A stretch of DNA of 32,516 nt from Synechococcaceae cyanobacterium (GTDB taxonomy: Bacteria; Cyanobacteriota; Cyanobacteriia; PCC-6307; Cyanobiaceae). A model generated the notes under the pieces. It had not been told where the DNA came from and did not search any database. It saw only the letters and a list, made by a program, of their open reading frames with translations. Of this stretch, positions 4,421 through 6,977 are shown in pieces; the stretch's first letter is position 1, and every line of letters starts with the position of its first letter. Location of the stretch: contig CANHMF010000011.1 of the NCBI GenBank assembly GCA_947461705.1, positions 1-32,516 on the forward strand, written 5' to 3'. The translations under genes and the position numbers were made by a program.

Positions 4421-5023
4421 ATGACAATCCTGAGCACCAACACCCAAGCCAGCACCGAACATCCGGTGGAAGACCATGGCGCCCACCCCGATTTCCGCCT
4501 GTTCGGCCTGGCCACCTTCCTGGTGGCCGATGGCATGACCTTTGCCGGCTTCTTCGCCGCCTATCTCACGTTTCGGGCCGTGAATCCCCTGCCAGCTGGC
4601 TCCAGCTATGAGCTGGAGCTGCTGCTGCCCACCATCAACACCGTGCTGTTGCTGGTGAGCAGTCTCACGTTCCACAGGGCTGGATCAGCACTCAAGGCGG
4701 GCAACAATCCTCTGTGCCGGCGCTGGCTGGTGCTCACGGCTGGCCTGGGCTTCACCTTCCTGGCCGGCCAGATGATCGAGTACTTCTCGCTGCCCTTCGG
4801 CCTCACCGACAACCTGTTCGCCAGCACCTTCTATGCGATCACCGGCTTCCACGGCCTGCACGTGACCCTGGGGGGGCTGATGATCCTGATCGTTTGGTGG
4901 CAGAGCCGGCCCGGTGGCCGGGTGAGCGAGCACAATCTGTTTCCCCTGGAAGCCACCGAGCTCTACTGGCACTTCGTGGATGGGATCTGGGTGGTGCTTT
5001 ACGGGATTCTCTATCTGCTGTGA
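4421..5023 (+). CDS. ctaE: Cytochrome c oxidase subunit III
   Basis: Core subunit III of the oxidase, thought to stabilise subunit I and proton uptake. The 200-residue product has about five helices, the number usual in short bacterial subunit III proteins. Family sequence is visible in the first helix (FRLFGLATFLVADGMTFAGF), in YAITGFHGLHVTLGG with its paired histidines, and at the C-terminal ELYWHFVDGIWVVLYGILYL. It starts 10 bases after ctaD with a GAGG-like site overlapping the ctaD stop, so ctaC, ctaD and ctaE form one operon. No subunit IV is seen downstream; a 124-base gap follows before the abrB-like gene. Confidence 0.95.
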   Translation: MTILSTNTQASTEHPVEDHGAHPDFRLFGLATFLVADGMTFAGFFAAYLTFRAVNPLPAGSSYELELLLPTINTVLLLVSSLTFHRAGSALKAGNNPLCRRWLVLTAGLGFTFLAGQMIEYFSLPFGLTDNLFASTFYAITGFHGLHVTLGGLMILIVWWQSRPGGRVSEHNLFPLEATELYWHFVDGIWVVLYGILYLL

Positions 5024-5147
5024 GCCTGCCCTGAACTGGGGATCGAGCGGCCAGCGGGCCCGAACCATCACGAGATGGCCATTGTTCCCAGGTTGTGGCC
5101 TTGCCGCTGAACGCAATCGATCGGCACAATTGTTGCGTACCAGGGCC

Positions 5148-5585
5148 GTGTCACCGGTGTTCGTCGAAGAGAAAGTCACCGCCCAAGTGCCGATGCTGCA
5201 GGGCAAGGCGCTACTGGACAAGGCCCGCTCCCTGAGCAACCGTCCGGAGGACCAGATCGCGCGGGCCTGCGGCTATGTAGGTCCAAGCGGCCGGGTGCTT
5301 AAAAAGAGCTTCTACCGGGCTCTTGTGGAGGCCAAGGGGTACAGCTTGCCCTCCGCAAGCTCCAGCGGCGGCAGCGGCAGCAAGGGTCGCCAGGCCGAGT
5401 TCCGCACCCGTGTGCATGGCAATGGCAACCTGCTGATCGGCCACGCCTACACCCGGCGCATGGGCCTGGAGCCCGGCCAAGAATTCAAGATTGAAATTCA
5501 CCACGAAACAGGGGCCATCTGGCTGCTGCCCCTCGAGGGAGATGGCGCGGTGCCCCCCGGCACGGACAGCGCCGAGCACCACTGA
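5148..5585 (+). CDS. cyAbrB-type AbrB family transcriptional regulator
   Basis: Small DNA-binding protein of the cyanobacterial AbrB class, whose members regulate carbon/nitrogen balance and other genes. The N-terminal half has the typical MLQGKALLDKARSLSN then ARACGYV sequence, followed by a Gly/Ser-rich linker. The C-terminal AbrB-like swapped-hairpin domain reads FRTRVHGNGNLLIGHAYTRR to GAIWLLPL. The start is uncertain: GTG 5148 gives 145 residues, GTG 5157 is 3 shorter, and ATG 5193 gives 130, closer to the usual family length but with no clear ribosome site. A short palindrome (ACAATTGT, 5126-5133) just upstream could be an operator. It stands alone and converges on the hdeD-like gene. 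Which of the two usual cyanobacterial paralogues it is cannot be told. Confidence 0.85.
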   Translation: MSPVFVEEKVTAQVPMLQGKALLDKARSLSNRPEDQIARACGYVGPSGRVLKKSFYRALVEAKGYSLPSASSSGGSGSKGRQAEFRTRVHGNGNLLIGHAYTRRMGLEPGQEFKIEIHHETGAIWLLPLEGDGAVPPGTDSAEHH

Positions 5586-5590
5586 ACCGT

Positions 5591-5640
5591 GAGCCTGTGC
5601 AGAAATGGTGCACCGTGGTGCACCATTTCTGCACAGGCTC
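5591..5640. repeat. Near-perfect 50-base palindrome between convergent genes
   Basis: The left arm 5591-5614 (GAGCCTGTGCAGAAATGG then TGCACC) is the exact reverse complement of the right arm 5617-5640; only the two central bases (GT) are unpaired. As RNA it would give a 23-bp stem with a 4-base loop on either strand. It fills almost all of the 57-base gap between the stop of the abrB-like gene and the stop of the hdeD-like gene. A bidirectional terminator is the simplest role, although no T-run follows on either side. A dispersed palindromic repeat element is the alternative. No second copy was noticed in this window. Confidence 0.9.
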
Positions 5641-5642
5641 CC

Positions 5643-6251
5643 TCACACCGGCAGGGATCCCCCAGCGGAATCCGAGCGATCCCGATCGTGAAAGGCGGCG
5701 CTGAACACGAGCAGATCAATGCCGCTGAACAGGAAGCTGATCCCCACGAGGATGCCCAGCACGCTCAGCAAGCCGCCGGCCCGCATGGTCACGATGATCA
5801 GGCCGAGCAGGAGCGTCACGACGCCATTGGCCAAACCCCAGCCCCAGCCAGGCATGTCGGTGTGGGAAAGGGACACGATGATCGCCACCACACCCTCCAC
5901 CAGGAACACAATGCCGATGGCAAAGGCCAGAGCCGCAACCTGGGCTGCAGCAGGCACGATGCCGGCACTGAACTGCTGAATGATCCAGGCGCCGGTGACC
6001 AGAAACAGGGTGGAGACCACCAGGCGCCAGAAGCAATGCCAACGACTCAGCCGCCGAGCACGGTTGAGGTTGTTGACCCAGCCGATGATGCCGCCCACCA
6101 GGAAGGCCAGGGCCACCACCACCGTGACCCAGGCGGAGGCAACCACGGGAAAGATCAGGGCCAGCAGTCCGAGCACGAGCAGCAGGATGCCCTCGGCGAT
6201 GGTGAAGCTGCGAAGGGAGCCCCGATCGAGCTCCGGTTTGTCAGAAACCAT
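5643..6251 (-). CDS. HdeD family (DUF308) membrane protein
   Basis: A 202-residue hydrophobic protein with about six predicted helices in three hairpins, the layout of the HdeD/DUF308 family. In E. coli HdeD is linked to acid resistance; the molecular activity is unknown and the cyanobacterial role is not established. Visible segments include SFTIAEGILLLVLGLLALIF, ALAFLVGGIIGWV, LAFAIGIVFLVEGVVAIIV and ILVGISFLFSGIDLLVF, with the repeated helix-Gly-helix pattern. ATG 6251 begins a charged N-terminus (MVSDKPELDRG). It lies 60 bases downstream of riboflavin synthase on the same strand and may share its transcript. Its stop abuts the 50-base palindrome. Confidence 0.85.
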   Translation of the reverse strand: MVSDKPELDRGSLRSFTIAEGILLLVLGLLALIFPVVASAWVTVVVALAFLVGGIIGWVNNLNRARRLSRWHCFWRLVVSTLFLVTGAWIIQQFSAGIVPAAAQVAALAFAIGIVFLVEGVVAIIVSLSHTDMPGWGWGLANGVVTLLLGLIIVTMRAGGLLSVLGILVGISFLFSGIDLLVFSAAFHDRDRSDSAGGSLPV

Positions 6252-6311
6252 GGAAGGTGTTCAGCCGAACGAACACGTACCCACGGACGGTAGGCATGAC
6301 GCCAGGGCTCG

Positions 6312-6977
6312 TCAGCCCCAGCCATGCTCCGCCAACCAGGCGCCCGTGATCTCCGGCGATGGGGCATTAGGCCGGCCCGTGGCTCCCGCGAGGAGCCGTT
6401 CGGTGTATTTGGCCAGCAGATCGGCCTCGAGGTTCACCGCATCCCCCACCCGCAACCGCTGCAGCGTGGTGCTGGCCCAGGTGTGAGGAATCACGGCGAT
6501 CCAGAACTCCGCGCCATCGGGGCTGCAGCCCGCAACGGTGAGGCTGATGCCATCCACCGCCACCGAGGCTTTCTCGCAGATGTAGCGGCCGTAGAGGGCC
6601 TCATCCCAGCGGAGGGCCAGGCGCCAGGAGGCGGGCTGTTGCTCGATGGCCACCACCGTGCCCAGGCCATCCACATGACCACTCACCAGATGGCCGCCAA
6701 GACGATCCGCCAAGCGCAGGGCCGGCTCGAGGTTGACCCACTCCCGCCGCTCGGCCTTGGCCGCAAGGGTGCTGCGTCCCAGGGTCTCCTCACTCACATC
6801 GGCATCGAAGCCAGTGGCGGAGCTCCGGGTCACGGTGAGGCAGACGCCATCCACCGCAACGCTGTCGCCCAGGGCCAGGCCGGCGGGATCGAGGCCTGCT
6901 CCCGCGGGGATCAACACCTCCAGCCCTCCGGCGCGGCGCTGCACTTGCCCCACGGCCTGCACCAGACCGGTAAACAT
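6312..6977 (-). CDS. ribE: Riboflavin synthase, alpha subunit
   Basis: Dismutates two molecules of 6,7-dimethyl-8-ribityllumazine to riboflavin and a pyrimidinedione, the last step of riboflavin synthesis. The 221-residue product has two tandem lumazine-binding domains. The first opens with MFTGLVQAVG, continues with GDSVAVDGVCLTV and ends before GGHLVSGHVDGLG. The second repeats SVAVDGISLTVAG and ends near residue 200. ATG 6977 was chosen because MFTG is the conserved family start; an in-frame GTG three codons earlier is less likely, and AGG lies 8 bases before the ATG. It diverges from the nuclease gene across a 55-base gap and is probably followed by the HdeD-like gene on its transcript. 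Confidence 0.95.
   Translation of the reverse strand: MFTGLVQAVGQVQRRAGGLEVLIPAGAGLDPAGLALGDSVAVDGVCLTVTRSSATGFDADVSEETLGRSTLAAKAERREWVNLEPALRLADRLGGHLVSGHVDGLGTVVAIEQQPASWRLALRWDEALYGRYICEKASVAVDGISLTVAGCSPDGAEFWIAVIPHTWASTTLQRLRVGDAVNLEADLLAKYTERLLAGATGRPNAPSPEITGAWLAEHGWG

Follow-up and report, generated by a model that had tools for sequence, protein, structure and literature searches.

The 50-base palindrome in the convergent gap behind an abrB-like gene is probably one copy of a small, non-autonomous, REP/RPE-like dispersed palindromic repeat of a picocyanobacterial genus, whose cores have been exchanged at old sites in one lineage after another and which forms a hairpin in RNA at gene 3' ends. 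The element is a hairpin of about 36–50 bp, made up of an outer frame, which in most copies is TSTCC...GGASA, a stem specific to the copy and a core specific to the lineage. In two of the families the core consists of a pair of 8-bp palindromes in tandem, separated by two bases, which in the window (the whole stretch analysed, 32,516 nucleotides) takes the form GGTGCACC-NN-GGTGCACC. The elements are dispersed, fall into at least four core families, occupy shared sites at 3' ends and in a coding linker, and are missing from the window site in relatives. A copying event would add copies at spots that tolerate insertion, such as 3' ends and protein linkers, and the core at an old site would later be replaced by the one then active in the lineage. 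At mRNA 3' ends the hairpin may block 3' exonucleases or contribute to termination, an effect that would follow from where copies can survive.

The window palindrome and its locus

The left arm at 5591-5614 reads GAGCCTGTGCAGAAATGGTGCACC, and its exact reverse complement stands at 5617-5640 (Table 1). An earlier note on this DNA had described 24-bp perfect arms around two central bases, and the description held up. No perfect arm in the window exceeds these 24 bp; once the element is masked the maximum falls to 11, and 20 dinucleotide-Markov sequences of window length reach 8–11. The best hairpin in an 800 kb sample of four related genomes (G011, G014, G003 and G001) scored 17 vs 24 for the window palindrome. 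RNA folding, suggested in the same note, gave -46.2 kcal/mol (z -10.1, with 0 of 200 shuffles as good), and the DNA fold gave -30.1. The two GTGCACC units that had been noticed are the GGTGCACC octamers at 5607 and 5617, the only occurrences in the 32.5-kb window and both inside the element, which rules out an iterated octamer of the HIP1 type. Rfam returned no match at gathering score, the hairpin-like matches lying far below it (e.g., a microRNA model at 35 vs 150 bits). The TSTSCAG frame is found in five of the seven aligned own-genome copies (C11, C83, C22, C57 and C76), the exceptions being C183, where it is on the left side only, and C39, which has CTCCTG. The outer frame of the window copy is TGTGC, not TGTCC, which counts against reading it as a mobile repeat.

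Table 1. Coordinates of the palindrome, its parts and the flanking genes in the window
Feature	Position	Strand	Basis
Whole palindromic dispersed element (probable), 24-bp arms and GT centre	5591..5640	.	sequence reading, fold, genome search
Outermost left arm GAGCC, partner of 5636-5640; the other listed own-genome copies are without GAGCC	5591..5595	.	
Left outer frame TGTGCAG	5596..5602	.	alignment of own copies
Inner stem AAAT	5603..5606	.	
Left core octamer GGTGCACC, self-palindromic	5607..5614	.	
Centre GT	5615..5616	.	
Right core octamer GGTGCACC	5617..5624	.	
Right inner stem, outer frame and outermost arm, ATTTCTGCACAGGCTC	5625..5640	.	
AbrB-like regulator gene (PF14250), element 3' of the gene	5157..5585	+	domain match
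DUF308 membrane protein gene (PF03729), convergent 3' neighbour	5643..6251	-	domain match

The AbrB-like frame stops at 5585 and the DUF308 frame at 5643, leaving between them a convergent gap of 57 bases that is filled by the element; the earlier note had it occupying nearly the whole gap. The DUF308 neighbour is presumably HdeD by name. Upstream of these neighbours lies a gene for cytochrome c oxidase subunit III (PF00510; 4421-5023), and downstream one for a lumazine-binding, riboflavin synthase-like protein (PF00677; 6312-6986).

In the nearest relative compared, Synechococcus sp. HJ21-Hayes (G019), the abrB-hdeD flanks are 93% identical over 4 kb and the stop-to-stop gap is 21 bases with the hairpin absent, as against 57 in the window genome. 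Relatives with the locus number 21, and the element is absent from this gap in all 18 that can be resolved stop to stop, G019 included (G007, G018 and G011 are left out as unresolvable); their gaps span 5 to 48 bases or the genes overlap, and no such hairpin is found there. The 36-base difference between the window and G019 equals the element stretch from TGCAG to CTGCA, and CTGCAG is present in the gaps of both G019 and G023. Judged by these alignments the window copy looks young, and we infer that it was inserted at the CTGCAG hexamer; no clean target duplication is visible, a point against a mobile repeat.

Dispersed copies and the core families of the genus

A similarity search and a covariance model (R1) placed eight elements in the window's own genome (G000), on contigs C11 (the window), C83, C183, C22, C57, C76, C39 and, in degenerate form, C24. 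These copies share AATGGTGC..GGTGCACCATT, with an outer stem that varies between them. Four of the 25 genus genomes were positive with R1: G000, G019 with nine places, and G023 and G020 more weakly. A dispersed palindromic element was among the roles first proposed for the palindrome, and these copies, with the related elements elsewhere in the genus, support it. Leaving the window copy aside, four own-genome copies stand at orthologous places in G019. Among the genome contigs searched for the exact core ATGGTGCACCNNGGTGCACCAT, a set that may exclude the window's own genome, it was found in HJ21-Hayes only, in five stretches. One worn copy (L015:3000-3036 in G000 C24, and L084 in G019 C19) is adjoined by a half-element-like stretch, GGTGCCCCATCTGGCGCC, which in G019 is accompanied by GGTGCACC. 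When 300 family genomes were scanned with a stricter filter, the positives were G000, G019, G023 and G053, the last being the only genome from outside the genus; it was rejected as a carrier, as its hairpin is a different one within a predicted gene and looks unrelated, and it was dropped from the location, shared-site and outer-motif counts. Covariation within the own family is weak, the count of pairs with two-sided changes being reached by 200 of 500 shuffles and the covariation score by 11 of 500, and this too was counted against a mobile repeat.

Elements of like build but with other cores were found in other lineages, with GGCTCGCC, GGATATCC-NN-GGATATCC, GTGGGNCCAC and, tentatively, GTCGAC at their centres. 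The GGCTCGCC family, whose full core is GGCTCGCC-AT-GGCGAGTC, belongs to G020, G021 and G023; a model (R2) made from the weaker R1 matches and run over 39 relatives located nine places in G023, four in G021, three in G020 and one weak place in G019. Alongside it, G021 and G023 (L277-L283) have another family, GTGGGACCAC...GTGGTCCCAC, in which a middle part of about 11–13 bases varies. The pattern GGATATCC-N0-6-GGATATCC occurs as 64 pairs in eight of 25 genomes (7, 4, 8, 15, 11, 6, 3 and 10), with none for the reversed-pattern control. REPs in other bacteria reach higher copy numbers than these 3–15 per positive genome, a low count that speaks against a mobile repeat. On the complete chromosome of G014 (C1), five of the eleven GGATATCC pairs lie at 42-124 kb, a span of about 82 kb. 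A prediction drawn from polA, that GTGGGNCCAC would be dispersed, held in G021 (four places) and G023 (three); G002, G007 and G016 have one place each and the control has one, in G006. These figures include the polA copy in the case of G016's single place and of one in G021, the polA form of G012 falling outside the pattern. GTCGAC was seen at three places in 400 kb of G011, polA included, and at two in one G022 locus, these being the fetched loci, with unclear frames at two of the five places.

The outer motif, mostly TGTC, TCTC, CCTC or CGTC, is common to all families and was present in 114 of 158 half-elements vs 59 of 483 control zones. Copies of the GGATATCC family differ in the five bases that separate core from frame, yet within a copy these bases complement each other: across 47 distinct copies of the 64, 120 of 235 positions pair, compared with a shuffle mean of 87 and a maximum of 112 in 5000 shuffles, and 13 copies have fully paired stems where 0.85 would be expected, orthologous copies being non-independent in this shuffle and in the gene-context counts given below. 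A complementary stem with changing letters fits either selection for a hairpin or a template-directed correction in which one arm is copied from the other. A tree of the polA and trxB proteins (with G020 polA left out for a cut contig, no polA match in G000 or G010 and a partial one in G024) unites the eight GGATATCC genomes in one group with local support of 0.87, and G000 with G019 in another. The GGCTCGCC core is found on two separate branches, G021 with G023, and G020, which was scored against a mobile repeat and means that the cores are lineage-bound but do not follow simple descent.

A search of the own genome (89% complete) for Y1_Tnp (PF01797) gave no match, while five of 14 controls were positive, and the lack of a mobilising enzyme there speaks against a mobile repeat; the idea of a REP moved by a RAYT was set aside on this result, which at that completeness is not decisive. 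A phage origin was also rejected, as the exact own core is in none of the viral contigs and none of the 11 viral contigs that match the GGATATCC pair combines the outer frame with a paired stem; 16 fixed bases are expected about that often by chance (set size estimated), and so those matches were discounted. By eye, a de novo search of 800 kb (G011, G014, G003 and G001) gave no further recurrent hairpins at a threshold strict enough to miss G011's own polA palindrome. In a literature search made mostly outside subscription journals, no published report of these cores was found.

Shared sites, transcript ends and competing readings

The linker of polA between the 5'-3' and 3'-5' exonuclease domains holds a palindrome in 13 of 22 compared genomes, the other nine having no recognisable one. 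G019, G023 and G020 have one copy each, GGATATCC pairs are found in G002, G009, G013, G014 and G017 (one half worn in G017), GTGGGNCCAC in G016, G012 and G021, and GTCGAC in G011 and G022, and the polA reading frames stay open with the palindrome inside. This interdomain linker of DNA polymerase I (L078:6988-9990; L118-L139) is thus a palindrome hot spot with at least four, perhaps five, core types in frame. More broadly, 81 fetched copies (79 distinct) of the own, GGCTCGCC and GGATATCC families occupy 35 sites, and at seven of these orthologous sites different species hold different cores: polA, the gap beside cysS, the trxB 3' end, the mqo-serS gap, gltX-rplS, and the places beside G23_C26 and own_C22. 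Each pair of families has five sites in common, where 0.10–0.19 would be expected with 1500 random gaps and 0.29–0.57 with 500. Outside polA, the same site means the same gap with an offset of up to 250 bases, which weighs against a mobile repeat.

Simple gene calls put 15 of 40 GGATATCC loci in convergent gaps, 18 in co-directional gaps, one in a divergent gap and six in genes, as compared with 3 convergent, 32 co-directional and 23 divergent among the remaining gaps of the same loci, so that convergent gaps are favoured (Fisher p 1e-5) and divergent ones avoided (p 5e-5). For the 79 distinct copies the figures are 27 convergent, 30 co-directional, 6 divergent, 12 in predicted genes and 4 at ends. 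A large operator, once suggested as a role for the palindrome, finds no support here, as few copies separate divergent genes and the majority are intragenic or stand at the 3' end of a gene. The suggestion of a bidirectional terminator is only partly plausible: the position fits, but an intrinsic terminator has a U-tract after its hairpin, and there is no T-run 3' of the window palindrome on either strand, as the earlier note had remarked, nor a TTTT run in more than 7 of 84 sense 3' tails of the family. Three sites were listed when 5000-6400 was scanned for terminators, and the palindrome is not among them. The family therefore occupies terminator positions, mostly without a U-tract. At one orthologous site (L161, L179, L184 and L196) a sense-strand T-run follows the element in four of five genomes, and there it has the look of an intrinsic terminator. 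For the two window genes, the most likely effect, as read from the sequence, would be that both mRNAs carry a strong hairpin at the 3' end, as a by-product of a tolerated position. Cyanobacteria are without Rho, and in the one cyanobacterial strain studied most transcript ends are left unexplained by canonical mechanisms, according to the part of PMC13289151 available; a family of strong 3'-end hairpins in picocyanobacteria may bear on this question.

How the shared sites came about can be read in several ways. It is possible, if short of probable, that hairpin sites are a genus-wide property in which outer frame and chromosomal address persist and the central palindrome is swapped in place, each lineage rewriting most of its sites. 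Such swapping, if true, would call for an activity working in trans, by copying or recombination, that can recognise an old hairpin and put a new core into it with no Y1 transposase involved. With different cores at fixed addresses, most markedly in the polA linker, the sites would then form a natural record of how one tiny repeat displaces an earlier one, and might reveal by what means small palindromes that have no transposase are moved. A reading that deserves serious weight without being the expected one is that the polA linker and certain tolerant gaps were each hit repeatedly and independently by different palindromic elements, with no replacement of cores. The offsets outside polA, the insertion-tolerant nature of the sites, and the presence in G012 and G016 of GGATATCC copies together with a different polA core would all fit, but the outer motif is common to all families, and the bases just outside the right polA frame are GGACAGTGCTGC in both G002 and G019 despite their different cores, which points to one insertion whose core changed.

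It is rather unlikely that the hairpins are simply selected terminators or stabilisers of mRNA 3' ends, with the shared cores merely serving as building sequence. The bias to 3' ends and convergent gaps agrees with this, as do the T-runs directly after the element at three sites, the lack of Rho (PMC13289151, as far as available) and the situation at trxB, where seven of 25 genomes have a downstream element and the non-carriers G009, G017, G003, G008 and G015 have ordinary A/T-flanked hairpins near the same place. However, a terminator needs no fixed core octamer repeated at unrelated genes, copies lie within polA, TTTT tails are few, and the 18 resolved relatives manage the abrB-hdeD gap with no such hairpin. 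Improbable, in our view, is that the cores are putative sites of a fast-evolving DNA-binding protein (a recombinase, nucleoid protein or segregation factor) whose specificity they track. Two families do have cores of two 8-bp dyads 10 bp apart, or one helical turn, each lineage has a near-exclusive core, and in G014 the stretch at 42-124 kb of a 2.75 Mb chromosome holds five of eleven copies, but GGCTCGCC is not self-palindromic, the G002 copies are spread out, and the origin was not placed by sampled GC skew, with no dnaA motif in the end stretches read. An incidental single hairpin in the abrB-hdeD gap can practically be dismissed: the site is indeed empty in G019 and the resolved relatives, but the eight dispersed copies in the same genome rule out a lone hairpin. 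The earlier note would have taken a single, non-conserved copy as the sign of such a hairpin; the window copy is indeed absent from the resolved relatives, whereas the family proved to be dispersed.

Comparison with known repeat systems

The repeat that we favour as the explanation resembles the REPs and REPINs with GTAG and CGTC tags, which, in the available part of PMC3733652, are small dispersed palindromes mostly in convergent or co-directional gaps near 3' ends. The same part describes CGTC-tagged REPs, whose tag varies to TGTC and CCTC, as having no associated transposase, and the TGTC/TCTC/CCTC/CGTC outer motif of the present family is similar to these variants. So far as the accessible literature goes, CGTC repeats have been reported in five phyla, Cyanobacteria not among them, and GTAG repeats in Anabaena, Nostoc and Cyanothece. 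Like REPs, these are many-copy, mostly extragenic small palindromes (eight own copies, with 12 of 79 distinct copies in predicted genes). In contrast to the single unpaired tag of a REP, here each end has the tag, and the two mirror-image tags usually pair; instead of the 8–9 bp stem and 4–5 base loop of CGTC-REPs there are arms of up to 24 bp with mostly 0–2 central bases. There is also no CCA tail, and the stem changes by copy and the core by lineage. As the REP layout of an unpaired tag and a short stem with a loop is absent, we class the element as a new form of small dispersed palindromic repeat and not as a REP.

Changes of class at one place also have precedents. Different REP classes at corresponding places in related strains, specifically at orthologous RAYT genes, were named an “orthoswitch” (PMC3686654, in the portion available); here, the changes are at dispersed sites without a RAYT gene. 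Among the palindromic elements of Rickettsia, RPE-4, RPE-6 and RPE-7 are cases of different groups near the same place in orthologous genes, and RPEs lie inside frames without breaking them, as far as the available text of PMC3767692 describes them, just as the polA linker frames remain open. RPEs, however, are 100–150 bp long, compared with about 36–50 bp and a strict central palindrome here, and the likeness is one of general resemblance. Lineage-specific 8-bp palindromes in cyanobacteria are known from the HIP1 kind (PMC4390886, available in part) and are also present here, but HIPs are single octamers at hundreds to thousands per Mb, whereas at the loci counted octamers are scarce and almost always belong to an element pair. 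The nearest known kinds are the REPs, for position, the tag-like motif and the lack of a linked transposase in the CGTC type, together with the Rickettsia RPEs, for in-frame insertion and the change of group at one place.
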